The notes under the pieces are model-generated. The model was not told where the DNA came from. It searched no databases and saw only the letters and a program-made list of their open reading frames with translations. A stretch of DNA of 64,000 nt, taken from Ziziphus jujuba (lineage: Eukaryota; Streptophyta; Magnoliopsida; Rosales; Rhamnaceae). Each line of letters begins with the position of its first letter. The first letter of the stretch is position 1. Positions 11,979 to 62,080 of this stretch are shown here, piece by piece. The stretch spans positions 14,873,001-14,937,000 of the forward strand of contig NC_083389.1 in assembly GCF_031755915.1 (NCBI RefSeq). Direction: 5' to 3'. The position numbers were made by a program, and so were the translations under genes.

Positions 11979-12090
11979 AATCAAATCGATTGATCTTCTT
12001 CTGCTATCTCTGCTTCAGAGCTAATATCCGTTTCGATCCCGATGAGATTATAAATTATGTGGGATATTTGTTTTGTTTGTTTAGGGTTGT

Positions 12091-24681: not shown

Positions 24682-25094
24682 GTAATAATAACTTGAAATA
24701 AAAAAAATCAATCTCTCCACAAGAAATAAGCATGACCCATCATTCAAGTTTAAAAAAGGAAAATTTATCAACAATTAAAAAAAAAAAAAAAAAGGATCAA
24801 ATGAGAAATGAAAAGAATGAGTACCCTTCTGTTGTTTGGGTAATTATCGTTGACCGACTGTTTGTTATTGGAGGGCAGAGAGTCGTCAGGAGAAAATTGG
24901 TGATTGATCTTGAGGTTGTTGTGATGACGCTGAGACAAAGATGAAGGGAAAAATTCTTTGGCTAAAGGATTCAGCTTTGTGAACATATCAACCAGCTTCT
25001 GCACATTGAATTCCGATTCCGTTATCGTCTTCGATTCCAAGTTCGAGTTCTTGGCAGCCGCTGCCTCACCGGAAATCTCAGCAACCGCAGCCAT
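18894..25094 (-). CDS. PABC-interacting (PAM2) protein with two RRMs, CID8-13 type (10 exons, 302 aa)
   Basis: CID8-13 proteins bind the MLLE domain of poly(A)-binding protein through PAM2 and contact RNA through two RRMs. Predicted exons, in transcript order: 25094-24825, 23982-23872, 23764-23720, 21048-20976, 20873-20761, 20625-20566, 20394-20347, 20244-20176, 19114-19053, 18951-18894. They sum to 909 nt with matching phases. The PAM2 core LNPLAKEFFP is at residues 41-50. A basic patch RRRRNNYSQGRRR follows at 89-101. RRM1 has RNP2 VYVSDI and RNP1 RFAFVEFA (157-164). RRM2 has VYCTNI and RIAFVEF (255-261). The tail SPSKTPVRPR is typical of this group. The start is the ATG at 25094; an upstream in-frame GTG was rejected. 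Exon 7 ends at a weak donor (GTTGGG). Intron 3 is 2.67 kb. Confidence 0.9.
24636..24690. repeat. (AAT)n microsatellite in intron 1 of the RRM gene
   Basis: A long run of AAT/ATA triplets with one interruption (AATAGTAATAAT). On the minus strand it creates a spurious poly-Tyr reading frame. Confidence 0.9.
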
Positions 25095-25511
25095 AGAATC
25101 AAACCCCACTCAACCAAAAAAGACAGAGCTACTACAAATAATATATATATATATATATGAACGAAAATGAAACTGAATTTAATATAAATTAGACAGCTCT
25201 TCCTTATTATTTATTCCCTTTTTTTCCCTCCGGAATGAGGGATTAAAGCTTGCAGATTTTGAGCCTAAATCAGATAAACCAACCCAAAAAAAAAGAAAAA
25301 GAAAAGAAAAAAACCCAGAAACAGAATGATTCTACAAACAAAAAAAATGGGTTCTTTGGAAGAGAACGATCAGAGTATAGGTGGCGGTGGTGGTGATGGT
25401 GGAAGGTTAGGAAGAAAGAAAAATTTGAGCTTTTGGGGGTCTTTGTAAATTTTTGTTTAATGGGTTTTTTATTTTTATTTTTTATTTTAATTTATTTTGC
25501 TGGGGTTTCAA

Positions 25512-35070: not shown

Positions 35071-35314
35071 CTAGTCTTAAATCATGTCCTTGATATCAAG
35101 ATTAATGCAAGACCTCATTTTTCAACAACTGCATATCAATAGCTGATTTTTGAAATTGTATTTATTAATTATCAAATTCTAACAGGATTTATTTTTCCTA
35201 AATAAAATTTTTATATGTTGATAAATCTATATTTTATCATTTGTAAATTTTAAATCTTGATGTAATATAAAAACTAATAAAAAAAGATCTGATATTAAAA
35301 TTACCAACTTATCG

Positions 35315-35316
<2 letters not shown>

Positions 35317-35354
<38 letters not shown>
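35317..35354. repeat. (TA)n microsatellite
   Basis: A long uninterrupted TA run just outside the left end of the Mutator-like element. Similar runs occur throughout the window (for example 12396-12421, 35037-35064, 46904-46936, 50155-50178, 56317-56350 and 57956-57980). Confidence 0.9.
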
Positions 35355-35358
<4 letters not shown>

Positions 35359-35535
35359 TATATTATAAATAACATGTATTAGGCTTCACAATCAAAGACG
35401 AGAACAAGACTAACAACAGGTCAAGCATGGGCTGATGCTTTCAATTTTAACCCTTACGGTCCACCCGAAGGCCCCAAATCCACAACTAGATCACATCCAT
35501 TTCTCATTGATTAATACTCAAAATCATTATTTCAA

Positions 35536-35650
35536 GGGGAATTTTGCCCAATGCCCTCTTTAGAAGGGTCATAATGATATATACCCTTGCATTTGTGAAC
35601 TTTTTTGTTTTACCCTTTAATATCCATTACACCCTTAAAAAAATTTTAAA
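35536..35650 (+). repeat. Left terminal inverted repeat of the Mutator-like element
   Basis: Matches the complement of about 45425-45535 with gaps: GGGAATTTTGCCC, then ATGCCCT against ATACCCCT, TATATACCC, TTTTTTGTTTTACCC and AATATCC. Identity fades inward, so the inner edge is approximate. Confidence 0.88.
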
Positions 35651-35728
35651 AGACTTGGATGTCCTTTATTTTAGATCTAATACAAGGTTACCTTCTCACT
35701 TGTGGTCATTTCTTTTTTGCTGCTTTAG

Positions 35729-36473
35729 AAATACTTGAATAGTGGATCGGAAGAATCTGAGTCTTTAGCAAATGGGGGTATTGTTGCCATTCTACTAGAA
35801 TTTGTGGGTGTTTTTAAGTTTTTGACGTTGCTCACCAAGGTTTCTTATGAAAAATCTGCATTGAGGAGGTCAGAGAAGCAATTGAATGTTCTCGTTGGGG
35901 CTTTGGGAGCCATAGCTGGGAATATGGTTTGTGTAACAGCCCAGCCCATACCACCTGCATGCAGATATTGTCCGCTTTGGGCCCAGTCCGCACGGTTTTG
36001 TCAAAATGCATCTGCAAGGGAAATGTATCCACACGCTTATAAGCCATGTTTTGTTCCCCTTTCCAACCAATGTGGGATCTCATAATCCTCCCCCTTTGGG
36101 GCCCAACATCCTCGTTGGCACACCGATCCGGGTACTGGCTCTGATACCATCTGTAAACGCCCAGTCCACCCGCATGAGATATTGTCCACTTTGGGCCCAG
36201 CCTGTACGGTTTTAAGCGTGTGGATATCTTTCTCTTGCAGATGCGTTTTGACAAAACCGTGCGGGCTGGGTCTAAAGCGGACAATATCTGCATGCAGGTG
36301 GTCTGGGCTGGGCTGTTACATTTTGCTTCCTAATTAGTCCTTTGGTTCTGGATTTCAATTTTGGTCCACTTGATGGTTTTGGTAGATCTTCAATTGCTAT
36401 TTTAATGGGTTGCTTAGCTTTTCTTTTTATGCTTGGAATGAAGAGTTTATCTTTTTACAGGTAAGAAACAAAA
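35729..36473 (+). pseudogene. Captured exon of an unidentified multi-pass membrane protein, split by a TRIM-like insertion
   Basis: After a plausible 3' splice site (TTTTTTGCTGCTTTAG at 35713-35728) a frame runs open to 35931: KYLNSGSEESESLANGG then hydrophobic IVAILLEFVGVFKFL. The TRIM-like element occupies 35932-36320. Reading past it and one copy of the 5-bp duplicate keeps the same frame (FLISPLVLDFNFGPLDGFGR, then AILMGCLAFLFMLGMKSL) to a donor GTAAGA at 36473. So this was one exon of about 350 bp when the retroelement landed. At least two hydrophobic stretches suggest membrane segments. I do not recognise the family, and no neighbouring exon of it was found. Confidence 0.6.
35932..36320 (-). 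mobile_element. TRIM-like retroelement, rearranged, with inverted end
   Basis: The minus strand carries LTR-like sequence starting TGAGATCCCACATTGG (~36082) and ending CTGGGCTGTTACA (35932), a purine tract CAAAGGGGGAGG just before it, and a primer-site-like GATGGTATCAGAGCC (36138-36152). The start of a second LTR follows (CAGTCCACCCGCATGAGATATTGTCC on plus, from 36152). This miniature LTR-PBS-PPT-LTR layout is that of terminal-repeat retrotransposons in miniature. The expected right LTR is replaced: 36232-36320 is an inverted copy of 35932-36020 with only about six mismatches. Flanks GTTTG (35927-35931) and TTTTG (36321-36325) look like a 5-bp target duplication with one change. Confidence 0.75.
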
Positions 36474-36482
36474 ATAAAGATT

Positions 36483-36614
36483 GCATAAAAAACTCGGAAG
36501 CTGTAAAAGTATTGCAGTTCGAATCTGATTATTGTAAAGTTGCCTCATCTTTTTAGAGAAAGCAAAAAAAAACTCAGAAGATGTACAAATATTGTAGTTC
36601 GAATCTGATTACTA
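36483..36614. repeat. ~80-bp direct duplication
   Basis: Two similar blocks, each ending in GTTCGAATCTGATTA (36518 and 36598 regions), with aligned AAAACTC-GAAG-TGTA sequence before it. Located just right of the captured membrane-protein exon. Confidence 0.6.
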
Positions 36615-36680
36615 CGTAAATCACAAGGACACCATTCAATCTATACATATGTGAAACAACACAATTTGAACAGAATCATC

Positions 36681-38095
36681 TTATGTGGGTAGACTAGATT
36701 CATTAACATCAAAACTGGATGCTTGTGCAAGATTTGACAACTCTTGTTCACCACTCAAAACCTGCAAGAAACACCCATCTTTGATGAGAAATGGATGAAT
36801 TTCAAAGGGTGAGAAAATAAAATGTCGGGAGGGGAGAAACTCCAATGGCAATTTCATCTTCTCCAAAATGAGTAATCAGTAAAATCAAATGAATGAATTT
36901 TAACGCTTTCTCACTTGCCCATTTATCACCCATGTTGGGAAACCTTCAATTCTAGCATCTGCGCATGCCTTTAAAATTTTGGTTCCTTTCTTATAACCAT
37001 CAGGGAAGCATTCAACATAATTCAACAGTAACATCTGCATTCAGTGTCACCATGCAAATAACATAATGTAGCAAGTAATTCATTTTTTGAAAACAAAACA
37101 CACAAGAGATGATCAATGTGAATACAGTTACCAATTTTTCAATTGTATTAACCTCATGGTTCGAATCAGCTTCTAAAACAAAAGTTACAGAGTGCAGAGT
37201 TATCTGCTTTTGTTCTAGGTAGTGTGAACACCAGAAGCCCCATACATTTTAGCACCAATTGATTGCAGATGCTTTGCAAGAGAAAGAGCAAAAGGACTTG
37301 ATGGTGACGTTATCTCAGTTGTAAAATATGGCAGTTCAATTTCAGCCAAGCTGACCAAGAAATAAAACAAGGGAAATAAATCACTGAAAATGTCTTATAC
37401 ATTATAACCATATTTAAAATTATAATTTTAAACATTAATGACAGCATAACAATCACCAATTTTCTATAATCTGTCAGCATTCTTGTACAGTTTACATTTC
37501 TATTATCTATGCTATTTTATTTTAGTTGAAATTTATAAAATTCTTGAAAATAAAAAATTGGGTTATTGACATCTTAGGATTATGGAAAACAGGAAAACCA
37601 ACGTTATGAGTGGACAGAGTTGAATAGCCTGCCATAATGCTAGCTTCAAGTCACACCTTGATGAATAAAGTAACTAAACCCCTATATTGCATATTCAAAT
37701 AGAAAAAAAATCACTGCGCAGAGAGAGAGAGTAATTACCTTAAGGGCACAAGTTGTGAAGAGTTATATGATGAATTGAGAGCAAGAACCACCAAACTAGC
37801 TATAAATAGCTATAAACCCACCACTTTCTGTATCTGTTGCAACCCAAAATCCTAGAATACAAACATCAAAGGAGTACATAGTTATTTTTACTACGACATA
37901 AACGCTTTGTTTTGTAAGTTTTTGGGAAATACAAAGATAAGAAAACATGGATACACTGAACAAATAGTTTACCTTTTGAGTGATGAAAAATAAGCTGAAT
38001 GATAGGAGAGCAGATAATAAACAGTAAGAGCATGACGCTTCCGTAAATTTAGTGCTTAAAATGTATAGGAAATACGCACTTGAAGTAGCCATGGA
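36681..38095 (-). pseudogene. LTO1: LTO1-like (thylakoid VKOR-thioredoxin) pseudogene fragment
   Basis: LTO1 is the plastid lumen thiol oxidoreductase that forms disulfides; it has a VKOR membrane domain fused to a thioredoxin-like domain. Five exon pieces in order remain on the minus strand. Exon a (~38095-37973) reads SSAYFLYILSTKFTEASCSYC, keeping the VKOR CxxC. Exon b (37851-37739) is DFGLQQIQKVVGL then a TAG at 37810-37812. Exon c (37350-37204) is LAEIELPYFTTEIT to AKMYGA. Exon d (37034-36915) is NYVECFPDGYKKGTKILKAC to EGFPTWVINGQ. Exon e (36761-36681) is VLSGEQELSNLAQ. Lesions: the nonsense codon in exon b, a one-base loss near 37235 before the thioredoxin WCxxC, TGC to TAC turning the second Cys into Tyr (37219-37221), a lost GT donor after exon c, and several codons missing at the start of exon d. 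The N-terminal exons are absent. Confidence 0.88.
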
Positions 38096-38544
38096 GGTTG
38101 TAGTTCATACCCTACTCCAGATAATATGGTTGTATGTAATAGTTATATCCTACATATTCTTTTCTGTTTTTGTAATTTTCATGTCTCTTCATAAGGAAAT
38201 TTTAAGTAATCAACTTGAAGCTGTGCCTTTTCGATGAATGTTTTCTTGTTACTTTTTCTGCCTTTTATGTAAAGCACTTCACACGGTACTGACTTAAACA
38301 TTCAGGATCTGTTTTGTTGTTACAGAATGTATTTATGTATATGAGGACGAAAGGGTTCAAATACTAACTCATCTCCATGTCATGGTCTGTTGTCCTTATC
38401 ATCTTTAGCTTATTCTTAAGTGGTCCAAAGGGTGACTGATAGTGAATTTGGCGACTCCTCTGTGTGTACCTATCTCCATCCCTCCCATACTTGTTCAATG
38501 GGTTAAGCATTTTGCAAATTTAGATTATTTCACTTGCAAATTTA

Positions 38545-40210
38545 GATAATTACCAAAACCCCTATGGGTATCACATTTTACCAATTTTTTGGCCCCATGA
38601 ATCCCCTAATGTGTGTTAAATGCAACAACATGCAAAATATACATTTTTCAATAATTCCAAAGAAAAAAAACCCCAAAAGTTCTGAAAAAGTTCTCAAATT
38701 GGCACAAAAATTTGATTACCGTAGGGCATTCGGTCATTACCGATAAAATCTATAGTAATCAATTTGTAGTTGCTTAAAATATTACCGTAGGTTTCATTGG
38801 TAATTACTGAAACTTCTATGGTAATCACATTTTACCAATTTTTTGGCCTTCACAAGTCCCCTAATGTGTGTTAAATGCAAAAACATGCAAAATATACATT
38901 CTTCAATGATCCTAAAGAGAAAAAAACCCCAAAAATTCTGAAAAAGTTATCAAATTGGCACTTACCGTAGGACATTCAGTAATTACCGATAAAACCTACG
39001 GTAATCAATTTGTAGTTACTGAAAAAATTACCGTAGGTTTCATCAGTAATTACCGAAATTCCTATGTTAATCACATTTTACCCATTTTTTGGCCTGCACA
39101 AGTCCCCTAATGTGTGTTAAATGCAACAACATTTAAAATATACATTCTTTAATGATCATAAAGAGAAAAAACCCCAAAAGTTCTGAAAATTTTATCAAAT
39201 TGGCACAAAAATTTGATTACCATAAGGCCTTTGGTAATCACCGATGAAATCTACAGTAATCAATTTGTAGTTGCTCGAAAAATTACCGTAGGTTTCATTG
39301 GTAATTACTGAAACTTCTATGATAATCACATTTTACCAATTTTTTGGCCTCCACAAGTCCCCTAGTGTGTGTTAAATGCAAAAACATGCAAAATATACAT
39401 TCTTCAATGATCCTAAAGAGAAAAAACCCCAAAAAGTCTGAAAAAGTTATCAAATTGGCACAAAAATTCGATTATTGTAGGGCCTTCGGTAATTACCGAT
39501 GAAATCTACAGTAATCAATTTGTAGTTGCTGGAAAAATTACCGTAGGTTCGGTAGTTACTAAAACCCCCATGGTAATCGCATTTTATCAATTTTTTTGCC
39601 CCCATAAGTCCCTTAATGTGTGTTAAATGCAACAACATGCAAAATATACATTCTTCAATGATCCTAAAGAGAAAAAACCTCAAAAGTTCTAAAAGAGTTC
39701 TTAAATTGGCACAAAAATTTGATTACCGTAGGGCCTTCGGTAATTACCGATAAAACCTACGGTAATCAATTTGTTGTTGCTGAAAAAATTACCGTAGGTT
39801 TCATCAGTAATTACTGAAACCCCTATGGTAATCACATTTTATCAATTTTTTGGCCCCCACAAGTCCCCTAATGTGTGTTAAATGCAACAACATGCACAAT
39901 ATACATTCTTTAATGATCCTAAAAGGAAAAAAACCCCAAAAGTTCTGAAAAAGTTCTCAAATTGGAACAAAAATTTTATTACCGTAGGGCCTTCGATAAT
40001 TACCGATGAAAGCTATAGTAATCAATTTGTAGTTGCTGAAAAAATTATCGTAGGTTTTATCGGTAATTACTGAAACCCCTATGATAATCACATTTTACCA
40101 ATTTTTTTGCCCTCACAAGTCCCCTAATGTATGTTAAATGCAACAACATGCACAATATACGTTCTTCAATGATCCTAAAGAGAAAAAATCCCAAAAATGG
40201 TCAAATTCAG
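38545..40210 (+). repeat. ~254-bp tandem repeat array (about 6.5 units)
   Basis: The landmark GTGTGTTAAATGCAA recurs at 38611, 38866, 39112, 39367, 39618, 39873 and (as GTATGTTAAATGCAA) 40129, giving periods of 246-256 bp. Each unit holds ATTACCGTAGG, CGGTAATTACCGAT and CCTACGGTAATC, which are inverted copies of one another, so each unit can fold. Units differ by scattered substitutions. Apparent ORFs across it are by-products. Confidence 0.95.
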
Positions 40211-40740
40211 TAATTACCGATGGAACTATCAATAATTTTTCCAGCAAACATTAGAACTCCTAATATGGATTACCGATGACCTGTCGGTAATTAACTTTGG
40301 GTGAAATTTTCTAAGTTTTTCCAAACTTTTTTGTGGATTGTATTGTTGAGGATCATTAATAAAGCTATATTTTGCATATTCTTAGTGGAAACACACATTA
40401 TTGAAGTTGTCGGATTGAATTGTGATGATTTGCTTTGAAAATACATGACAAATTGAAATTATGGATAAGGTATCAGTAATTACCGATGTAACCATCGGCT
40501 TTGGTAATTACCCATGCACCATCAGTAATCAACTTTATTTGGAATTTTTCCACTTTTTCTAGTCTTTTTGTAGATTATTTTGTTGAGGATCATTAATAAA
40601 GTTAGATTTAGCATGTTATTGGTGGAAACATACATCATCGAAGTTGTCGGATAAACAATTGTAAATTACCGATGGTGTATCAGTAATTACTGAAGGAAAC
40701 TGTTAGTAATTTTTTCAGCAAGCACATAGGCTCATACATA
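40211..40740 (-). repeat. Inverted, diverged units of the same repeat
   Basis: Two ~250-bp units marked by GAGGATCATTAATAAAG (40350 and 40585 regions) and AAACACACATTATTG / AAACATACATCATCG. They match the complement of the array unit (AGGATCATTGAAGAATGTATATTTTGCAT region ... AACACACATTAGG). The same ATTACCGATG motif occurs throughout. The array therefore flips orientation near 40,220. Confidence 0.75.
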
Positions 40741-41074
40741 ATAGTTCTTGCCATACTATTATTTATTTATTTTATTTTTTTTTTTGGTTGACAGCAAACC
40801 ATCAAATATACCATATATATTGAAAAGGCTAAAATATAAATATAAATATTTAGACAAACATATGTATATAGGATATAAATGTAAATACTACCAACAACAC
40901 AGTGGCCAAAAAAATATTTAATGATGACATACTCATTGATTCCAAATTAAGAGAAGCATAACAAAAACACCTTGGAAACATTAACAAATTTTGAATATAA
41001 TTTTATATCATACAAGATAGATGTAGTATGCAAATAGAAAAAATTACAAATTGTTTGTGAACTAATCTCGAGAT

Positions 41075-41373
41075 CAAAAATGACTTGCAAACAGGTAGTG
41101 GATAAAGAAATAAGCTGCCTGAAGAACACCAAATGCAGCTAGCTAGCTCAGAGAGAAGGACTGAAGTAACTTGGCAACATAGCTAGACATCCAGGTTACA
41201 TTACTAAGATTTTTCAGTTGCCTGGCCATGCCCACTCTAGAACAACAAACCAAGCCAAGGTATCCCATGCTAATATCTCACTTAAGCAATCATCCCAATC
41301 AAGGACTCCTAACAAAAGGATTATAGATAAACCAATCATTGCAGCTACAACTATTGCTACACCAAGAGCTTCT
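41075..41373 (-). pseudogene. Plastid dicarboxylate translocator (DiT-type) pseudogene fragment
   Basis: DiT proteins are chloroplast envelope 2-oxoglutarate/malate (or glutamate/malate) exchangers. After an AG acceptor (41374-41376) the minus strand reads EALGVAIVVAAMIGLSIILL, then GVLDWDDCLSE and AWDTLAWFVVL, strongly like the DiT transmembrane region. A two-base insertion near 41238 shifts the frame. In the next frame similarity resumes (GMARQLKNLSNVTWMSSYVA, SFSLS). There TGGCCA has become TAGCTA, giving a stop in place of Trp, followed by AAFGVLQAAYFFIHYLFAS. Similarity then ends. This is a clear non-functional fragment inside the Mutator-like element. Confidence 0.85.
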
Positions 41374-41673
41374 CTGCAAGCATACCAAAAATACATGGTA
41401 AATCAGAAATATAAGAAAAATGATGTATATTCTCAACAAATCGCATACATATTATGTATGACACAATAGAAATTGTGCAAATACATTATCGAGTGCAAGT
41501 AGTTGACTTCCATTCAATTTATGGTCATTTTAGCAGGCATGACATGGTGGAACCTAGTACAGAAGATAGTGGCAATTTCAGTTGCAAGTTTTACAATGCA
41601 GAGAATTTTAGATAGCTAAAGAGAGAATACTCTAGAAATTTGGGTGCTTTAGTTGAATAAGAGATAAGTGATG

Positions 41674-41891
41674 CCCATATATCAATCTTCATAAACACTA
41701 AGATCCTGGAAACAAAACATCCTGGAAATGAAGATCCTTATACAAAATAATTTTAGAATTTGGTGGGAACTAAATTGTCTTTCCCATATATCAATCTTCA
41801 TAAACACTAAGATCCTGGAAACAAAACATCCTGGAAATGAAGATCCTTATACAAAATAATTTTAGAATTTAGTGGGAACTAAATTGTCTTT
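41674..41891. repeat. 109-bp tandem duplication
   Basis: CCCATATATCAATCTTCATA begins at 41674 and 41783. The two 109-bp units differ at essentially one base (TTGGTGGG against TTAGTGGG), so this is a recent duplication inside the Mutator-like element. Confidence 0.95.
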
Positions 41892-41991
41892 CCCATCCAA
41901 TGGAAATTATTTCTATTGATTTATTACTGATGAACCACTATTGCCCTCATGGTTCCATGGACTACTATTGATTTGTGCAGAAGGACTCTAC

Positions 41992-42106
41992 CTGATGATT
42001 TCAACATGCTCAATTGCACCACAATAAGTGAAAAAATCATAAACATCCTTTTCTATTGCTTTTGGAGATAAGCTTGTAACTTCTGCAGATAACCACCCGG
42101 GTACAT
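41992..42106 (-). pseudogene. BPA1-like RRM protein, first-exon fragment
   Basis: BPA1 and its relatives are plant RRM proteins that bind the lipid-transfer protein ACD11. From the ATG at 42106 the minus strand reads MYPGGY, the family's typical start. A one-base loss then shifts the frame, and the next frame continues AEVTSLSPKAIEKDVYDFF then CGAIEHVEIIR, the first half of the RRM, up to a GT donor at 41991. The second half (RNP1, usually beginning SGEYACTAYVTF) was not found downstream. The frameshift four codons from the RNP2 strand and the missing exons make it a dead fragment. Confidence 0.85.
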
Positions 42107-42923
42107 TGCTTTTTAAGACTTACAAAAAGTGGAATTGAGTGAACCAGAGAAAAGGGATTTAAAATAATAGGAAAAAGTACAACCAAAAGCCAGATTATAT
42201 AATTATATATAGCAAAATGTATCATAAATTTAATGTTAACATTTCATGGTAACAAACAAGGGCATTGTTTAATCCTTTATCTTGAATGAAGAAGACCATG
42301 TTTTGGATGAAGAAAGAAAAGGGATAAGGGAAATGTTAGAAGTTGATGAAAGACGTATCATATAATTTGGATGACCTTGCTTTGTGTGACAATGCTCATG
42401 TTAATTTCAGCCAGTTCAGTGACCACTTGTAAGGCTCATATGTAGCATCTTTATTCAAAGTCTTAATAATCAAACCCTCACAACTGTAAACTACGATTAA
42501 TTAAGATTATAAATAGTACAATAAATCAATGATAAAGTCTGTGGGAAAAAAATAATAATTATACACTAAGATGCAACTAGCAGTGAAAAATTAATTACAA
42601 ATATTCTAGACTAAATGTAATTCAGAGAAGCTAATACAAACAACATAAATTCGTCTGTGGTTCTCATCATTGGTGAAAAGAACTTCTACACAATTAGCAT
42701 CACTTATGCCATCCAAATGCAGGATTAACATATTTACATAATTAAAATTGTTTCATCCAGTACATCATGTTTGGAATATCCCTTTTTTTTTTTTTTTCCT
42801 CCAATGCTCTAGGCCTAACCACCTGGACTTGGGGGTAAAAAGAAGAGGTCATTGCTATTTGGGTTGTCATCAAGGGGACTAGAATAACTAATTTACTAAA
42901 AGCTAAAAAGTGAATACCTTGCA

Positions 42924-43040
42924 TCAATAGCAGCATCAAGAAACTTCTATATTTCATCAATATCATTCGATGTTATTGCTGTAGCAAACTGAAAATATCC
43001 AGCTTCTTCCTCAAAGACTCATAAAGACACTGCACAATGC
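42924..43040 (-). pseudogene. Exon-like fragment, unidentified
   Basis: One frame reads VFEEEAGYFQFATAITSNDI then DEI, a TAG where Gln or Glu might stand, then KFLDAAIDAR up to a GT donor (GTATTC). The other frame reads LYESLRKKLDIFSLLQQ before stopping. It looks like a captured exon because of composition and splice-like edges. I do not recognise the gene. Confidence 0.35.
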
Positions 43041-43660
43041 AAAAGATGCACCAGTTAGAATGCATCAAGTTTCACTAATTTTAGAATGCTATACAAACCC
43101 AGCAGACTAATACAATCAGCATATAATTAGCAAATAAATATTCAAAAACATGCAATCCACAATGAGAAAATTAAATAAAATAGCTTATGCTGGTACGTAG
43201 TTCTTGCAATCAATAATTTTTACTACAAATGTCCTATAGCTATGTTAATATTGATACTGAAGTAAAATAAGTGAACTTGTACGATACATTGATTGCCTTA
43301 CATCTCGTTTCCAGCTGATTTGTCTACATGGCATGCTTTGGCCAATGTACATTTGGAATAGGAGTTCTAGTAGGTCTATAACGATTTGGAGTCGCTAGTT
43401 ATGCACATAATATATGTTCATGTATGGGATGGGACATATATATATATATATATTAGAAGCAATATAATATATGGATTTAGATATTCATTAACCCTATTTA
43501 GATATTACAAAGCCCCAGTCTCTTCAAGATCTGTTCAATGCTAAATATATATATATATATATATATGACCTTTATAAAAGTATGTATAATATGTTCTTAA
43601 ATTCAGAAGATATTTTATCGTGAAAAGAGGTTTGATCAAGAACGGCACTGTAGATGACAG

Positions 43661-43703
<43 letters not shown>

Positions 43704-43969
43704 GAAGATACTAGAGGAGTGATCTGAAATAATTCTACTACATTCTAATCAAAGAGAGTTCTGTTTACATTTTAAAACATAAAGATTGAATAATTTATGC
43801 ACAATTCATGTTGGTAGAGGCATGAGCATCATGTATGTGTATTTATGCCTCCATTTATGTAATACAATATATAAGTATGAGATGGAAATGTAAATCCAGC
43901 TGACAAGTTGAATTTGTTTTAACACAATAGATAGTTAATTTGAAATACATACATCATCAACAAGCAATC

Positions 43970-44059
43970 CCTTGACAAAATGGCACCATAGATGTTGGTA
44001 ATCAAAATTGTCAATAAAAATTATTAGAACCTCTGGGGAGTAGACGTCAATGTAGCAAT
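43970..44059 (-). pseudogene. Exon-like fragment, unidentified
   Basis: Between CTCATTTGTAG and a GTATGT donor the minus strand is open: DCYIDVYSPEVLIIFIDN then FDYQHLWCHFVKGLLVDD. A nearby 41-bp piece (44447-44487, PAKPGDQTYEFIL) is also bracketed by CAG and GT. The phases of the two do not join into one frame, so they may come from different genes or be damaged. Confidence 0.35.
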
Positions 44060-45179
44060 CCTACAAATGAGAAATTCTGTAGGCAGAGATTCAAGATTCA
44101 ATCAAAATAAGAAATGACATGCCCATGGAAAAAATATCCATGTCTATCATGCATACCAGGACCTTAACTCTAAAAGACACTTTGGTACATAAAGCCATAG
44201 TAAAAGGAAGGAAGCGAACAAAAAAGAAATTCTATCTTCCAATAACAGCATAGGACCTTCATCTGTCCCAACTCAATACAGCTTCCACTACTGTGTTCCA
44301 GTGAACCCAATAATATACCTTATAGGTCCACCAATCAACTAGGCTTTAAAGAATAGATGGTGATCTGTAGAACTATTATTTATCACAAAGTACAACACCA
44401 ACCACATAAAAGCAATTAATGAGGCAATCTAGTTGAACAAGCATACCTTAAAATGAACTCATAGGTCTGATCCCCTGGCTTTGCAGGCTGATTAAGATCA
44501 TAAAAAACAACATTAAGAAAAAAATTTTCCAAAACTAAAACCATGTTTAACTAATCTAACTTTTGTTTAGACACTGAAGAAAATCCTTAGTGAAAAACCT
44601 TGTTTTAGACCAAAATTTAATATAATTAACTAAAAAAAATCAATATCTTTTGCTCAAAAATGCGAATTTGATATTTTAAAAAATTAACTTCTCGCCTCCC
44701 TTTTCCAAGATTTTCTCAGCGGCCAACAAAATTCTATAAATCAACAACGACAATAAAAAAAAAAAAAAAAAAAGGATGGAAAAATTACTCACAGTTGGTA
44801 GGATTAGGCCCTCTTGAATACTTCACCTAAAAATTTATCATAAAAACATATATAGTCAAGAATTCAGAAAACTTGACAAAACTTAACTGCTAAAGTTTTG
44901 CATTTTTAAAACAAATTTTCACTTTTTTTTTTTTTCTCTCCCTACTCAAAGCAAGAAAAGCAATAAAATTAAGAGAAAAAGATTAAAAGTATAGCAGAAT
45001 TGACTCTAACCATGGATGATTCCTCCAGCTGTGGCTTCCAAAATAAACTTCCATTTGGCAAGTCTCTATGACAAAAACCAAGCTAGGGTTCCAATGATAG
45101 GATTCTAATTGTATTTTTCCATTTTGAAGATTTCTTGAAAAACCCAAGAAAGACCACACCATTAAAAGCATACCCAGAA

Positions 45180-45359
45180 GAGGAGGAGGAGGAAGGACCA
45201 AAGAGTTTGCTGTAGATCTACTTGCCAATTAGGTCGACGTCGATGAAGGGACTCCAAGGCCAAAATCGAGAAAGGCATGGCTGGGCTAATTGCTGAACCT
45301 AGGATGCTTCCTCCACTCATCTCTCCTCCTGAAGAACTCTCTGGTAGCTGCTTCGCCAT
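45180..45359 (-). pseudogene. Gene-start fragment next to the right TIR, unidentified
   Basis: An ATG at 45359, about 65 bp inside the right TIR, opens MAKQLPESSSGGEMSGGSIL, then SAISPAMPFSILALESLHRR and a hydrophobic LWSFLLLLFW before a possible GTATGC donor. The less AT-rich composition suggests a captured first exon. It matches no family I can name, and a functional short gene cannot be excluded. Confidence 0.4.
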
Positions 45360-45424
45360 TCTCTCATTTTCCCTTTTCTCTTTTCGTTGGGCGTTTCATG
45401 TGTATTTTCCTTTTGATATTTGAA

Positions 45425-45535
45425 AAGGATAGTTTAGGAATATTAAAAAATAAAAGGGTAAAACAAAAAACCTTGAAAGGAGAGGGGTATATTTCATTAA
45501 AGGCTTTCAAATAGGGGTATCGGGCAAAATTCCCT
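45425..45535 (-). repeat. Right terminal inverted repeat of the Mutator-like element
   Basis: Complementary to 35536-35650. It ends GGGCAAAATTCCCT at 45535 and is followed directly by the TTATTTCAA target duplication. Confidence 0.88.
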
Positions 45536-45825
45536 TTATTTCAACTATTTTATTTGTTTTTGTTTTGTTTTGGATCTTTTTATTTATTTTTTTTTTTTCT
45601 TTTAGAGCTTTGAATCTATGATAAGGAAGAAAAAAAGAAGTTTTAATTATCCTTTTTTTTTTTAAGTAAATTACCGATTGTATATAAAAAAAATAATATG
45701 AAAATTAAATGTACATTCTTATTTTCAATGAAGATATGCATTTCAATTTATTGCTTTATTGGATCCAAATTTCATACATGACTGGAAACAAAGAAAAAAC
45801 TCTATAGATCACATATATATATATA

Positions 45826-46006
45826 GAAACAGTCTTACATGCGGAAAATTTTCAACAAATTTTGTCCTAAATAGTTAAGAAAATGATGATTTTTTAAGAA
45901 ATTTTTGTCTATCACAAATATATTGATGACTATTTTAGAAAGTAAGCATCGTATTTTCCATTGTCTTGGACAAAATTCATCTGAGATTTCTCACATGTGA
46001 GACACA
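45826..46006. mobile_element. MITE-like hairpin element
   Basis: The left arm GTCTTACATGCGGAAAATTT and AACAAATTTTGTCC pairs with the complement of the right arm (GGACAAAATTCATCTGAGAT, TTCTCACATGTGAGAC). It lies 300 bp outside the Mutator-like element and has no coding sequence. Confidence 0.65.
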
Positions 46007-46155
46007 TTATATTTTTTGTTCTTCAAATGCAAAAGAGGCACACTGATATATTTTAACAACCTTTTTTTATTTTCTAGCTAGCAACAAACTGATAGCAGTT
46101 TTTTTTTTTTTTTTTTCTTTGGTAATAAAATTAATAGTAGTTTTGTTAAAGGTTT

Positions 46156-46482
46156 GCTGAACTTATAGCTATTATTGAAGCAATTTGTTTTTGTGTAGAG
46201 GCTGGTTTCCTTCATGGTGAAATTGTTAGTGATTGTCTCATTGCGATGCATGCTGTGAATTCTGTTACCAAAGTCCAACACCTAGACCCTAACTGTTTTC
46301 GACCTATTCAGGTTTAACATGCTCTTTTCAACCAAGGGAGACAAATAATGTTGTTCACTGTATTGCCAAATATGCAGCAGGTTTAGTTCACCATGAATCT
46401 CTGCTTGAAGTTGGCCCACAATGGCTCTCTGTTCTACTTGGGCTGATTGTTGTACCCTTGTTTCTAAATTATTATATGGTTC
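46156..46482 (+). pseudogene. RNase-H-like (RVT_3) retroelement remnant
   Basis: One frame reads AELIAIIEAICFCVEAGFL, then EIVSDCLIAMHAVN, and stops at a TAA just after PIQV. A second frame then continues CSFQPRETNNVVHCIAKYAA and PQWLSVLL. This is the order of the plant RNase-H-like domain found at the end of LINE polyproteins and in orphan RVT_3 genes: the Glu and Asp (SDCL) region, then the R-E-x-N-x-V-A-H-like segment. An A-rich stretch (46491-46528) follows, as at a LINE tail. The part upstream of AELIA is missing, so it is a 5'-truncated, frameshifted remnant. Confidence 0.75.
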
Positions 46483-46902
46483 TACTATTTCCAAAAAAAG
46501 AAAAAAAGAAAAAAAAAGAAAAAAGAAAGATGGAGGGGCTTTAGTCTGCAAGGCCGGGGATCACCATTTCAGTAATGGGCTTAGTATCCGGCTTCTTGGT
46601 CAAATCTAGTGATAGGTATGAGAGGTAATGGAGAAAGCCCAATCCCTTTTGGTAATCATATGTAACACACACAATTAAGGAAATTGTATACACCCACTTT
46701 CAATCATTTCAAATCATCTTAAGCTCTCTTAATTTGTCATATTTTCTTGCCTAATCTTCTTTTATGAAAAAACATCGCTGATCTTCTTTTAAAATCTCTA
46801 AATTGTTTCCTAGAAAGCAGATGAAAAAGACCTGGATAAAACTTTATACTAATGGCTGCTTCAAAGCAAATTCTATTAGTTGCATGGGAAGATAGGAAGC
46901 AA

Positions 46903-46940
<38 letters not shown>

Positions 46941-48483
46941 CTTGATACAAGAAATAGGGCTTACTCATAAGTGTACTTTTGTTATAAACTTATAATTTAC
47001 ATGGTAGCTTGCCTATAAAAAGATTGGAAATTTTCTTTTATTATTATTATTATTATTTTTTATTTTGGATAGGGGATAAAAATCCTTGCCATCTACCAAT
47101 ATTTACCGTTAGAAGTGTCGAATGCACAACAAGGCCCATTGAGCTGTTGATCTATTCATGTTCGTGTTGTGTTATGCCGTTTATTAGACATTGTTGTGCT
47201 TGTATCATGTCTATACCGGTTTGATTTGTATTACAACCCAACTTACTTTTAAAGTATGTCCACTATTTCCAAAGAACTTATAAAAATTGAAGTTGTAATG
47301 AATTCTTTTTTAGCCTTTGCTTGGGTCAAATTAAAATGGGATGGGCCATGACATCCTCTCGTTTTAGTTAGCAACATAGTATACATTTCTAGATGGGTTC
47401 CTCCGCAAAATGTCAATTTTGTTGTAAACGAGCAATGACTTTATAAAGTCTTTTTTTTTTTCTTTTTTTTTTTTGGGTTAAATTTTTTTTTTTTTCTCTA
47501 TCTTTGACCTCCTTTTTGTCAACAAATAACTAAATCACTATTATCATCAATAGAAAGATCACCGACAATTTGAGACCAAACGCTAGGCTCTAACAAGTAG
47601 GCGACAATCCTTTGGTCATAACTAGTTAGAGGGCTTTTGTAATAAAAAGAAGAAAATAAAAAGTAAACAACATCTTAATATTATGATTTGGAGTTAGAAT
47701 TATATAAAACAAAAATAAAAACGAATTACATACTTGAATCTATAGAAAACATTTACAACTTGTATACATTTTTCGCTTTTTTTTTTTTTTAAGTTACATT
47801 TAATTTTCTTTACAATTTTTTCAAAAGTAAAAAATGGAAATTAAATACTTCATCTATTGTTTTTCCTTTTTCCCTTACTTTTCTGCTATCCAAACATCCC
47901 CAGGAAGTAAAATAAAAAAAATAAAAAGGAAAAATAATATATATATATATATATATATATTTTTTTTCTTTAGAGTTTTATCGTTCATTGAACGTTAGAA
48001 GTGGGTGCATATAGTTTTCTTTTCGGGTGCATTTAGACTCACTGCACCGCCATTGCTGACCCATATGCAAAGGAAGCACAATCCAATGCCCCAATAAAAA
48101 GAAAAAGTTTCCAATTGACTAATTATGATAGTCATATACAATAATTTTAAGATTGTGGGGTTATAGATACTAATCATGATTATTTCATATTGAACACTTT
48201 CATTCATTCTTAAGCAAATTTCTAGAGTTTGTCAAATTAATTGGAAAATCTTATCCAGAAACATGAATTCCAATAATGGGTATTAACAAATTTGGGGACC
48301 CAGTTCAACTTTTCTTCTTAATACCTAAAATCGATTCACTTTTTGAGTTTTGTCAAACTCAATTCATTGATAAATTACAAAGTTAGCAAAGATGAAATTG
48401 AATAAGCAACTAGAAAAAAGATTTACCTAAACAAAATCAGTACATGGACTAAAATCCTTTTTTTTTTAATTTTTTTTAGCAAG

Positions 48484-48514
<31 letters not shown>

Positions 48515-48792
48515 TTAGAAAACACTAAGAACTATCCAATGCTCCCACATTACAAATTTGATTCTCTCTGGGGCCCAACATGTTTCTTCAATGAAAATCA
48601 CTCTTCTAATAGAAGAATATAATCTCATTGACCTCTCCATCCATATAATTGCCAAGACACCTCAATTTTCAAAAGTGGTCAATTTTTTCCATTTTTCTCC
48701 CTAAGAAAAGTAAAATAAACGACGTATGGATGTTGCGGAAGGTAGGTTAGGCAAGGTGGTGAAAGAAAAGGAAATGTTCTAATTTCCAGCCC

Positions 48793-48823
<31 letters not shown>

Positions 48824-51800
48824 AAGAAAGAAAAATCAGAGAAAGTGAAATTTCTACAAGTGCGGTGGTGGGTTTTACTTTGGAGCTTGAGTGGAATAAA
48901 AGAGATGGAGATCGAAGGGTGGGTCAAAACGCATCGTTTTGGACACGCGGCGTAAAGTGGGCGGAGGATGTAGACGTTAAGCAATTTTTTTCAGGTTGTC
49001 GGTATGTGTCGTAGATTCGAAGGTGGCCACGTGTCAATAGAAACGGGGTTTAGGTTTTTTGGCGGCCGTTTTAGACCGTTGAAACTGTTACGTTTTCGAC
49101 GAAAATCTGGGTTTGTCGTTTTCAATTTTTTGTGTGATAATTTAGTTGACATGACACTTTCATCTTCATATTTTGTCACACGCATCATCTTTTTTTTTTT
49201 TTCTTTTTCTTTTAAATGCTTTCGGTTGGTTTTATGCTTTGGATTTGATTGGATGTCTCCTAAAATCTTTGTTTTAATTAGTTTTCTCATTTTATTCGAA
49301 GAAGAAAAGAAAAGTAATCAATGCGTACTTTCACTCTCATATTTTTATTATTTTATTTTTAATCAAAATTTACCTTTAATTGTATTTATTTTTAATTTCG
49401 AATTTGGATTAAAAAAAAGTGTTGTCATGAAATAGTATTAGTATTAATTTTATATAATTAATATATTGTTTGCGTGCCTCACTTGATTGCATATAATCCA
49501 AAATTCCAGTTAGTACTTAGAATTTAAGAGAGATAATTCTATGGGATTCTAAACATTAATGCGAGGGCATGCAAAAATCAAGGTCGGAGCTATATCATTA
49601 CGATAACTTTCTTTTAATTAATTATGAATGTCCACCTGGCAGGTTTCATAATTAATTATATAAATTTATTACATTTTTCCATTAACATTTTGCATAGTAT
49701 ATATAATAAGAATGGCTTTGCAATTACAAACTAAAATGGGTCCAGTCTAATCATTGTGTTGGGAATTAAATTTTTATTACTTGATTAATTACTATATATA
49801 ATTGTTGTTCTTTTCCATCATCTTTTGAAACTATACCAGCATTTAAATATTTAGGATGGAATATTTTATTTGAAAAAGCAAGCTTAAGAAAATAAAACTA
49901 GCTTGGGATAAGACATGAAGGCTAGCTTTTACTAATTTAAATAATAATCTTCAACCACAAAATACAAAGGGAGAGGGAATATTATAAAACTAGTATTAAG
50001 AAGGACCAATTTGATTAATTAGATGAGTATATAGAACGTGGTATTAAAATTATTTAATTTCATTAGTATAATGGTGAGTGTTTTTCGTGAGCTAAATAGA
50101 ATAATTAAGTTACTCTTGATTATCAATATATTATTGATACATTGAAACTTGCATATATATATATATATATATATATATAGACTTTCTCAATTTAAAGGTA
50201 AGTGGACCTAATCATTTAAAGCTTTTGAATTTGATATGTGATAAAATGTTATATTAAATTTAAAAATTCTAAATAATTGCATTAATAGAAAGAAACCTTT
50301 TTTTTCAATTTTCTTAACCAAGAAACTGATAAATCTATTTTCTATGCATTTTTCTATAAGTTGCCATATATTTTCTTTTCTAGACATGCATTAAACATGA
50401 AAATTAGCTTCTTCGTTATATAATTTTCGATGACATTTGAGGTGGAATTTTGGTGAAGGGATAAATATTCTGGAAATTAGTAGTAGATCCTAAATTAGGT
50501 GGCACAATACATTATTATATTCGTCAAATTTTGATAAATCCCTGCATTGTTGGAAACCCTAAAACTATTGATCATGAATTAATATGATAGAACGGTCCAA
50601 TATAAATAGAATCCTATAGTGATTTTGGAATATATCATCTGGTGTACCAGTCTTGAAAATATTAATATAGCTCATGATTATACCCAAAACTTAATTTTAA
50701 ATTTGAATAAAAAGGACAAAGATTATACTCTACCTGGAATATGTATTTATATATATAAACAATAGAATTAATACTAATTATTGATATTCATTGTTATAAT
50801 TTGGGTCTAGTTAAGAAAAATTCAAGCTTAATTTCCATGTGAACGGATTTGAACATAACCATAGAAATATAAGGTCAAGAGAGACTAAATAAAGACCTGG
50901 TTTGTGGACCCATTCGGTCAAAATATTTTCTCTTCCATTTCCTCTCCCCGGCCAATAGCTATGTAGGATGGTACTGATTTAAATATATATATATATATAT
51001 ATATATATGGCTTATTAGTTTTGAAAGAGAAATGCAATCTGTGACTAATTGTAGTTATCTTACCAAACTCTAAAGATAATCTTATATATTGGCGGTGCAT
51101 ATACCAAACTTTATATTAATTATGTAATTAGAAACAAAGATTTTTCACAGAAAAAATATGAAACAGAAAGGAAGAAAAACATTAAAACTTTGACCGGTCT
51201 ATATATACACTGAATTTGTCCCAAGAATACCCACCGACCACCCCCCACCAAAAAAAAAAAAATCAATAAAACAAAGGGACTTGAGAGCTTGCTTGGGTCG
51301 ACCAAGCTGAAACCAACACAAAAGGCATTAAGTAACAAGTGTTTAAAGCTTATCTTGCCACATGTCCTTGTGTCCTTTTTGATCAAAATGGCATCAATTC
51401 GTAGGATATTCCTAGACATGTCCCCCTAAACAAGAATTTCCTTATCTTCTTTTTCTTGACTCCTTTTGGCATATGGTCGATGATTCAAATTTACAATTAT
51501 TATATATGAGAAATAATTTTACTAAATTATCCCAGTAACTATATGTATAGTTCCAAAAAGAAAAGAAAGAAAGAAAAAAGAAAAACTGCTTATAAATTTG
51601 AGGTATATAATATTTAAGAGGTTTATATAAGTCGGTAAAACATTTAAAGAAGAAAATTAACGTGAAAGAAGTTTCCCTTAATTTTCCTTTTTATTTTATT
51701 TTATTTTTTATCTTGGTAAATGAATTTTCCCTTAGTTTCAGTCAATGTGCGCATGCATGATATTATAGAATTTCTTTATTTACATCCCTTTTAATACTTT

Positions 51801-52758
51801 TGTCCTTGTACTACTGTAGTCCTTGAGGGCTTCATTGAATTGTCCAAAAACACAGTAAGTACATGCTTGGAGCTAGCTAGCTATGCAGAACCGCACAGCT
51901 GGTCCACTTCATGAAACTCTGGCTGTGCGTTTCATCTATTGGCTAAAGCTCAATCGTACTACAAGAGTTATGTCTGAAGACTGAAACCAAAACTGATGCA
52001 TATAAAGCATAAGTTTTCCTCTTTGGAATTTGATGGGATCTTTGTCTTTTTTCTTCTTTATTAAAATGGAATGGAGAATCTACATGCTGAATATTTGTTT
52101 TTTCAGCCCTACTTCACGTGAGCATGTACGAGTGCTTAATTATTAAGAAAATTAATTTAATTCTATATATCCACGTTAAATTGATCCTCTGAGTCTTTTT
52201 TTTTTTTTTTTCCTTCATCACTATATCAATCAATAATATATTGTTATATAATTTTAAAAAATTAATAAAAAAATAAATCAAGTCAAAAAACAATTAATTT
52301 TTAAAATAATTATTTTATCATTGATCGGAATATTTATAAAAAATCTGACGATCCCTCTCCTAAGAATTATATATATTATCGAACAACATATATAATTGGA
52401 TGATAAATGGATCAAGATATTTTATCTTGTTTTACATAAGCATATTAGTAAGTTCTTAGTAATTAATTAAGACAATTATTAATGGAATTTTTTGAAGTTC
52501 AAATTAACAGAGTTATGGTTGTTTTCTTAACAATATTTATATATAAAACCATTTTTCTATTTCTAAGAACAAACCCCTGGAAGGAAAAACATTTATCTTT
52601 TTAATTTAAAAAGTTATTTATTAAATTTTAAAGTTTTTACATATCAATGAAGTTGGAGCTTGTAGGACGTTTTTACCATGTTTAAATTTTTATATATTCT
52701 AAATGTTCAAAATCGAAGGAAGTAAGCTGTATACACTTTAATATTACTCGTTCTTAGT

Positions 52759-52800
<42 letters not shown>

Positions 52801-54272
52801 TAAATATGTTTAAGTTTAGAATAAATTAATTTATGACTTTGATGATCAATGAATGCATTTGCTATTAAGTTTCTCAAATATATCTAGTGTTTCAAAATGA
52901 ATTATTGTTTTAAGTATTATATGTATATAAAAGAAACAACTCGATGAAAGTTTGACACGTAAATAGACTTAAACTTTCCTGTCACCACTTGGAACAAATG
53001 CATGTGATATGAGCATTAAATTTCTATACACAAATAATTGGATCGTTTATATTTGAACAAATAATAATTGGTTGGTTTCTGTTTGTCTTGTAGAGAACCC
53101 TAATAATTTATCCTTAAAATTTGTGTTTGATTGTTTATGGGAAACAAAGTTCTAAGTAGAGGAGGCCGAGGGAGTTTTCTTCCTCGTGACCTCATTGTAA
53201 TTTTTGTACGATTTTTGTTTGGTTATGCACAAAAACTGGGGAGGAAAATCAAAAGATTAATGTACTTTTTTTTTATTTACTTATTGATCTTTAGTGAAAT
53301 GTCTCTAAATTATATTTTAAAATGTATCAAAATAAATGAGTGATACTCACAGAAAGTGGTAACTTAGTGGAAAGAAACCACTTAGCTTTCATACCTACGA
53401 ATTCGATAATTGAGATTTGAGTCTTGATAAGCTCCATTATTGCCTTGGATAGTTACATGCTCCAATACCATATAGTGCAGAGCTACGACCTAATGCTTAT
53501 GATACTATCAGGAAATATATTTGTTTTTTTTTTTAAAAAAAAGTACATTATTAAATAAGTAAAAAATAAAAATAAAAAGATTTCATTATTAATCATTTTA
53601 ATTTTTTTTTTTACATGGATTATAATTTTTTTTCTTTTGACTTGGATAAACATAAAAGAAGGAAACAATAAAAATAAATAAACAACTAGGGACTGTTTGG
53701 AAAGTAATGCTAGTGGGTCGGCAGGTATGTTATAGACAAGTATAGTGATTCACAATTATTAAACGAATTGGGGATTAGGCCCCACTCCAACTGAAACCGA
53801 TTTGACGCTACCCAAACATGCCACACACAAAGAACGTCTAAAACACTTTGTGCTATTCATTCATCTAATCCGTTGATGATGCGGACCTCGGCAGACCCCT
53901 GATAGCGGGGTCCACCATGTCAAAAACCAAGAGCGAGCTCCAAATTGCTTCATTGTTTGTGTGTTTTTTTTTTTTTTTCGATTTTGTTTTGTCTTGTAAT
54001 TTTATTTTATTTTTAATCTCCTCCTTATCCTGACAGAGCGTGTCTCCAGGGATTGGACTGAAAAAAGAGAACTCAGCCCCAAAACCCAAGAATAAAACCT
54101 CTGTGGGTTAAAGAGGAAAGTTGGCCCCACGCCCTCCAGACAGATAACAGACAAGTATTAAGCCCCACAAAAAGGCAAGCCCACTTGGACTGTCGTAAAA
54201 ACATCTTGATAAAAATAATCCACATTTAACGGTTACATCGTATCATCTTGTAATAGACCATTTATTATCATT

Positions 54273-54382
54273 TATACGATATTATCTGTGCAACGATTGT
54301 ATATAAATTTTCACCGTCAATAGTGGTTATACAATATTATCTGTATAACGATGGTATATAAATGTTCTCCGTCGATAGTGGT
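54273..54382. repeat. 55-bp tandem doublet
   Basis: TATACGATATTATCTGTGCA (54273) and TATACAATATTATCTGTATA (54328) begin two aligned units, both ending in GATAGTGG/AATAGTGG. Confidence 0.85.
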
Positions 54383-56222
54383 GAAAATGACACCGCAAGA
54401 ACTCTTCTATATAGTTCTTGAGATTCATGTTCTCTCTCTTTCTCTCTTTGCTCTATTATTACACCATCTACACACCCCCAATAATGTGGGAAAAACATCA
54501 TTAGGTTTGTGAAAGAGAACTCCCAAGTTTTTCAACTCCAACTCAAAAACCAAACTGTCTACTTTGTCGTCATCCTATGTGGAGAGGTCCACACACCAGT
54601 AGCATACTCCCTCTGGGTGTCTGGTTACGAGTGGGGAAGGTGGAAAAACTCAGTGGGAGCTCCAGGTGGCATATGGTGAGCCGTGACAGGTTTCCAACTT
54701 ACATGGAATTTTCTGCGTCAGGTTTTTGGAGGGGGTTGATTTGTAATTAAATCACTTTGTCCACTTTGCATACACTTTGTTTTTCAGATGACACCCACCA
54801 CGACGGCTATTATAGCTCTTTACTATGCCTAGTTTTGTTTTTCACATTTTTTTTTTCTTTTCTTTTGTAATACAATCAAAGATGTACACGTGGGTTGCAC
54901 ATTTATTACGTGAACCGTCTCTATGCAGCCAATTGGAATCAAAAGTTTTTCTGTCTGCTACTTTCCTAGACACTTCTTCACGCATGTATGGAATCTTCCT
55001 TTCTTTTTATATTTTTTTATATTTTTTTATTTTTCTTTCTTGCAATTATTAAGTTGCACTATAATCTAATTTGCTAATATATATTTCACTCAGATTTCTA
55101 CTGTTTTTAGATGCACAAGGATGTATATAAATAAAAGATTAATGCTAAATTAATCTAAGAAATATGAAGGTATAAAGGAGAAGGAAGATTTTTGAAATGT
55201 TGAATTAAACTTAGATGAAAATTTAAAAGAGCTAAATGATATTAATAATTTGTGTTAAAAAAAAAAAAAAGAAAAGAAGAAAAAGATGATTCACTCTCCC
55301 ATATTAGTTTGTGTTTGAGATGTTTGTGTGTCCATATATATATATATATATATATATGAATTTGATATCGTGGGGCAGCATCTCTTTATAGAGATGGACA
55401 TCCAATATAATAGCTTAATTATATCGTAATTGTCATTTGATTATATACTACCATATTAATTGGATGGTAATATAATAATTATAATAATTAGAGGGGCTCA
55501 AAATGACATCCATAATAACATTTTTGTATATATATATATATATATATATTATAAATTATGTCGGAAAATAAAAGGGAGACCCCATGTCTGAATGGTTTCC
55601 AACAACAGCACGTCGGGAAGTCCCTGTTGAATATGGATTCAGGTGTGCCTTCCAACACATTTCTTTCAATTCGGGACATCAGACATGATGGGATGCTACT
55701 GTTACTTGCGCTTTGCTCTTTTCTCTCAGCTCTTCCTTTATTTTGTGTCAAATCTTCTCATAATATGCCTCTTTTCTATCAGTGAGGTCATGCATCTATA
55801 TATATATAGCCATTATTAAAGCTACCTAGCTAACCTGACTTTTTCATCTTTCAAAGTCTTTGACTCTCTGCAGCTTTATATATATATATTCGTTTATTTA
55901 TTTATTTTATTTTATGAAATGCATGAACATACCAAGTAAAACAATCCAGTGTGGGAGACATAAAAAGCAGCATAAATTAATAGATTAATTACATATTATT
56001 TATTAATCCAAATTAGATGTTCGTTTGGGTTGACAGTTTTTTCTGGTAAAGGGGCACCAAGACTCTCATGGGGTTGGTATATATCTCTCTAATTAATCTT
56101 TTGAGAGACTTCTTCCATTACCTGTGGTCACACTTGCGTCTATGCTATCCAGCGTTTTATATTATCTAGATAAGAAAGAGATATGATAACTCAATATTAT
56201 TATATGTTTAATATACATAGAT

Positions 56223-61795: not shown

Positions 61796-62080
61796 CCCCT
61801 CCTCTCTCTCCTAACTCCCCTCAACTTTCTTCTTACAAAATTTGCCCAATCACTCTCATACACTCTCTCACTCTCTTTGTCTATCACATCCAAAGTTTTC
61901 TTAGAAACCAATCAAACCCTCTTCTTCTTCTGCCTTTTTTTTTTTTTTTTTTTGTTTTACTACTGTACCATATACTTCACAGTACCTTCTATATACTTTA
62001 CAGTACCTTATTTATTTATTTATTTTTATTTTTATTTTTATTTTTTGTTTTCCCTCTTTACTTTACCAATATAGATTGCC

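Follow-up and report, generated by a model that had tools for sequence, protein, structure and literature searches.

A probable ten-kilobase Pack-MULE in Ziziphus jujuba with pieces of six named genes between Mutator-type ends

Results

The DNA analyzed here is a stretch of 64,000 nucleotides from Ziziphus jujuba (assembly GCF_031755915.1, contig NC_083389.1, positions 14,873,001 to 14,937,000 of the forward strand), referred to as the window, and all positions below are counted from its first base. At 35536-45535 it harbors a candidate Pack-MULE, i.e. a Mutator-like element (MULE) with pieces of host genes. This element measures 10,000 bases, and the limits given in a preliminary description of the window were found to hold. 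Between its inverted ends lie pieces of six named, unrelated genes, all on the minus strand, together with a further exon on the plus strand and several repeats (Table 1).

Both copies of the 9-bp target site duplication (TTATTTCAA), which the preliminary description had called perfect, were confirmed to be exact. The 9-mer occurs three times in the window and is thus not rare on its own, so that its weight rests on the position directly outside the inverted ends. These ends open with GGGGAATTTTGCCC and AGGGAATTTTGCCC, differ in their first base and were aligned over approximately 120 bp (about 116 and 125 bases), the earlier estimate having been about 110 bp. The end-to-end alignment comprises 90 matches, 20 mismatches and 21 gap columns (82% identity over ungapped columns), and the ungapped arms of the terminal repeats are 88 nt long and 73% complementary. 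The local score of the ends, 89, was higher than that of any of 2,000 pairs of 150-bp stretches drawn at random from the window, among which the maximum was 73. A 13-bp core of the ends was detected only at the two ends within the 64-kb window, even when two mismatches were allowed.

Ends and duplication were then considered in a joint test, in which an inverted pair of 13-mers lying 80 bp to 12 kb apart had to be flanked by an exact 9-bp repeat, either immediately adjacent or at a distance of one base. Of the 14,324 inverted 13-mer pairs that the window contains at this spacing, a single one qualified, and this was the end pair of the element. Sixty first-order simulated windows, from whose counts low-complexity 13-mers were dropped, yielded no qualifying pair. 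The alignment score and the unique combination of end pair and 9-bp repeat demonstrate that the 10,000-base unit is real and sharply bounded. Target site duplications of MULEs are commonly 9 bp long. The exact 9-bp duplication falls within the 8-11 bp that are used as a criterion for MULEs (PMC3903597), and long terminal inverted repeats, a further criterion, are likewise present.

Table 1. Features of the element and its borders in window coordinates.
Feature	Position	Strand	Remarks
9-bp target site duplication, left copy	35527-35535	none	exact TTATTTCAA
Left terminal inverted repeat	35536-35652	+	local alignment
Plus-strand exon	35729-36460	+	AG acceptor, GT donor; membrane-protein-like by eye; split by foldback element
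Foldback DNA element, similar to a miniature inverted-repeat transposable element	35932-36320 (389 bp)	none	nested in plus-strand exon; 111-nt arms, 92% complementary
VKOR-thioredoxin fragment	36681-38104	-	five exons up to stop codon, introns kept
Tandem array	38547-40196	none	255-bp unit, 6.5 copies; repeat scan
DiT2-type dicarboxylate transporter exon	41077-41373	-	frameshift, stop; appears cut inside exon
109-bp tandem duplication	41674-41896	none	99% identical; repeat scan
First coding exon of RRM gene, presumably BPA1-type	41992-42106	-	frameshift near start; Pfam RRM_1 0.0037
DNA ligase 1 fragment	42402-43029	-	exons 43029-42918 and about 42483-42402, intron between; in-frame stop
eIF2B-epsilon exon	43953-44060	-	AG acceptor, GT donor; reading frame open
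Possible further exon (weak)	44447-44487	-	splice-like ends; no database match
NDUFB3 (complex I), most of coding sequence from ATG	45150-45359	-	frameshifts, stops
Right terminal inverted repeat	45410-45535	-	local alignment
9-bp target site duplication, right copy	45536-45544	none	exact TTATTTCAA

Five of the six genes were named by significant matches and the sixth, the RRM gene, by a weaker one; each contributes between one and five exons, and their plant-like sequence suggests that they derive from protein-coding genes of the host. At least three gene fragments (LTO1, a DiT translocator and an RRM gene) had been proposed before. The first two were matched in the databases and the RRM piece is present but weak, its Pfam match being below threshold, while the DNA ligase 1 (LIG1), eIF2B-epsilon and NDUFB3 pieces and the plus-strand exon were absent from that description. 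For the comparison with the PDB, exons were joined by hand (stitched queries) or whole reading frames were used unedited. The VKOR-thioredoxin fragment, which we take to be LTO1, was matched with E values of 5.2e-23 (stitched) and 4.7e-5 (unedited frame) and contains an in-frame stop, a frameshift and AT instead of GT at the donor of exon 3. Matches were likewise obtained with both kinds of query for the DiT2 exon (to DiT2.1, E 1.4e-38 stitched and 4e-15 in unedited frames), for the NDUFB3 piece close to the right end of the element (4.3e-16 and 3.5e-7) and for the eIF2B-epsilon exon (9.8e-6 and 8e-5). The two DNA ligase 1 exons together matched the Pfam ligase domain (5e-12), and the unedited frame found the ligase in the PDB with an E value of 0.0034. 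Singly, these exons matched adjacent parts of the profile (0.064 and 0.00066), and they are consecutive in the gene, the second one apparently being truncated inside the exon. The RRM piece was not recovered by the PDB comparison of unedited minus-strand frames. For the plus-strand exon no PDB match was obtained at E up to 5, and its Pfam match was insignificant (0.11).

The carried pieces are decayed, as five of the six named ones contain stops or frameshifts and only the eIF2B-epsilon exon is open. Exon limits were set by eye with splice motifs in mind; the presence of an acceptor AG at 10 of 10 and of a donor GT at eight of nine placed limits is therefore partly circular. Judged against PDB relatives, two pieces seem to be cut inside an exon, namely the exon of DiT2 and the second one of the ligase. 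Since introns were kept in the LTO1 and ligase pieces, DNA and not mRNA was copied there. The preliminary description had pointed out that two of its fragments encode plastid proteins. This did not develop into a pattern, because the added pieces encode proteins that are presumably mitochondrial (NDUFB3), nuclear (LIG1) and cytosolic (eIF2B-epsilon).

The six whole frames of the element were compared with Pfam and the three unedited minus-strand frames with the PDB, and in neither comparison was a match to a transposase or a reverse transcriptase obtained. The whole-frame Pfam comparison, which is poor at detecting small gene pieces, missed the DiT2 exon and hence excludes only an intact transposase. 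To this extent the element lacks a transposase, as is expected of a Pack-MULE. The three weak Pfam matches within the element (E 0.0078, 0.084 and 0.15) comprised two in the repeat array, which were taken as chance, and one, the last, that is the ligase piece; as a control, the right flank (45601-55600) was translated in six frames and produced one weak match (E 0.21). Pfam comparison of nine stretches between the fragments returned nothing, seven other stretches gave three sub-threshold matches (E 0.023-0.11), and Rfam showed no match across 35300-45800. The whole-frame PDB comparison covered minus-strand frames at E up to 0.1 and may miss plus-strand pieces. One of its three frames matched nothing, and the other two matched only relatives of DiT, NDUFB3, VKOR-thioredoxin, eIF2B-epsilon and DNA ligase 1.

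A retroelement had also been placed inside the element. This was rejected, as the six frames gave no reverse transcriptase, integrase or gag match and none of the 15 repeat families listed is a direct repeat of the long-terminal-repeat type. Far to the left of the element, at 3770-7910 on the minus strand, lies a Copia-type retroelement whose gag, integrase and reverse transcriptase domains are distributed among three open reading frames (ORFs).

The repeat array of the preliminary description was found. Its 255-bp unit is rich in palindromic motifs such as TTACCGATG/CATCGGTAA, and degenerate repeats related to it extend to about 40700. Beyond the array a different 99-nt repeat is present at 40317-40415 and 40554-40652. 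The foldback element has the ends TGTAACAGCC/GGCTGTTACA. A scan for nested end pairs with a duplication of 8-10 bp, in which the first seven bases of both ends had to be equal and which would miss the element's own outer pair, found ten pairs. All ten lie in the foldback element, the array or AT runs; no internal end pair outside repeats turned up, and nested MULEs were rejected as candidates.

Discussion

The inverted ends, the 9-bp duplication and the six unrelated gene pieces support the earlier proposal that one Mutator-like element carries several loci. We consider it probable (roughly 0.87) that the unit is one large, highly composite, non-autonomous Mutator-like DNA transposon, i.e. a Pack-MULE. 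Several observations weigh against this. The ends differ from each other at 18% of ungapped columns, and their recurrence was examined within the 64-kb window only, so that mobility of a family is unsupported. The Pfam scores of VKOR and of the RRM exon (0.0037 on 32 residues) are below the curated cut-offs, the RRM exon had no significant PDB match (best 0.56), neither the eIF2B-epsilon exon nor the NDUFB3 piece had a Pfam match, and the first ligase exon gave no ligase match at E up to 5 within one query. Moreover, the stitched queries were made only after the exons had been recognized by eye. A decayed piece of a transposase could have escaped the whole-frame Pfam scans. Finally, the six named fragments share one orientation, which is usual for Helitrons as well.

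This last point bears on an alternative that we regard as improbable, in which a Helitron or CACTA element collected the gene pieces and later came to lie inside a MULE, the MULE being the outer carrier only. The cargo of Helitrons frequently consists of several gene pieces with a common orientation, and all six named fragments (6/6) are found on one strand. Multi-gene maize Helitrons resemble the jujube element in holding several gene pieces per carrier, often in one orientation, but are not known to have inverted ends or a target duplication, both of which are present here. A CACTA carrier with five genes is documented in soybean (PMC1947982). However, one of the four candidates for a Helitron 3' end in the window (hairpin plus CTRR-T; the scan was for 3' ends) is inside the element, in palindromic repeat sequence next to the array, and none of the three CACTA-type termini (CACTA[CG][AT]A) of the window lies inside.

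An origin by fusion or nesting of at least two smaller Pack-MULEs, each with a few fragments of its own, appears unlikely to a similar degree. The long array does separate LTO1 and the plus-strand exon from the remaining fragments, but a search for the terminal 25 bases with up to 6 mismatches detected no copy inside the element, nor did the scan for nested end pairs, within its seven-base rule, find one outside repeats. An old segmental duplication, or an assembly join, between two chance inverted repeats is very improbable, as it would agree with the introns kept in LTO1 and ligase, which are also kept in duplicated DNA, but fits badly with partial exons of six unrelated genes in 10 kb, with one to five exons per gene and two pieces cut inside an exon, and with a combination of ends and 9-bp repeat that is unique in the window and was met in 0 of 60 simulations.

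If the element is a Pack-MULE, its pieces would have been gathered before insertion, as DNA and probably stepwise, possibly by gap repair or template switching between the ends. A transposase from another MULE, acting in trans, would have recognized the ends, and the 10-kb unit would have been inserted at TTATTTCAA in a single event; this course is suggested by the ends, the duplication and established knowledge of MULEs. The foldback element and the 109-bp duplication would have arrived later. Most likely the element now does nothing for the plant, although transcription starting at one of its ends may splice its exons together.

Pack-MULEs of rice, tomato, maize and Arabidopsis have in common with the jujube element the Mutator-type ends, the target duplication and the host gene pieces without a transposase, whereas the jujube element stands apart with its 10 kb and six named genes. 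The kind is already known, and the breadth of the jujube element is unusual; the preliminary description had called it unusually composite. Pack-MULEs that combine pieces of more than one locus have been described (PMC4858842, PMC8903248), and two or more parents contributed to about 5-10% of the MULE-derived genes in most Oryza species (PMC4858842). The size distribution of tomato Pack-MULEs peaks at 1.0-1.2 kb, those above 2 kb being of low abundance (PMC3310237). A rice benchmark set ranges from 300 to 15,000 bp (PMC8903248), so size alone is not unprecedented. Among Pack-TYPE elements of the genomes studied, wider carriers hold more donor loci (PMC8903248), and size and content of the jujube element therefore agree. 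A literature search, covering titles and abstract openings among the matches listed and few subscription papers, returned no Pack-MULE with six or more donors; we do not claim that none is in print.

Among the published structures compared, the nearest is Tgm-Express1. This soybean CACTA element measures 5.7 kb and contains, between its inverted ends, exons and introns from five unrelated host genes; their splice sites are retained, and the exons are joined by splicing in many chimeric RNAs (PMC1947982). Both elements combine pieces of several genes with inverted ends and splice sites. Tgm-Express1 belongs to the CACTA superfamily, lies in an intron and is transcribed, whereas the jujube element has MULE-type ends and six named donors. 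By analogy, the latter might tentatively be viewed as an exon collector. It would then repeatedly acquire short stretches of DNA, most of them one or two exons together with splice signals and most in the same orientation, and splicing of a transcript from the right end could join exons of six unrelated genes in chimeric RNAs. We consider this rather unlikely; chimeric splicing has been shown for Tgm-Express1, and here the carrier would be of Mutator type with more donors.

To our knowledge, the mechanism by which Mutator-type elements take up gene pieces is not settled. For animal Pack-TIR elements (named after terminal inverted repeats, TIR), gap filling and fork stalling with template switching have been put forward as models of capture (PMC8277862). 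With six named donors and kept introns, many junctions are present in one molecule of the jujube element. Given the host genome, each of them could be examined for microhomology and for its order and age, which would show whether the pieces came by stepwise gap repair or in a single burst of template switching.

Surroundings of the element

The G+C content of the element is 33.4%, compared with 25.6% in its left and 29.5% in its right flank (10 kb each). Just left of the element lies a short ORF (35383-35514), which has a splice-acceptor-like start, ends with ...TGQAWADAFNFNPYGPPEGPKSTTRSHPFLID and a stop codon, and gave no Pfam match; it may be either the end of a host gene or another fragment. 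The left duplication copy begins 12 bases beyond its stop codon, so the insertion may lie within a 3' untranslated region.

Farther away, the window contains a carotenoid oxygenase gene, presumably NCED-like, as one plus-strand ORF of 590 codons (62075-63844; RPE65 family, 2.7e-134), and plus-strand exons of a polygalacturonase (glycosyl hydrolase family 28) at 15998-17189. Minus-strand ORFs encode a VQ-motif protein (11619-12014) and a PAM2 motif (24771-25109).

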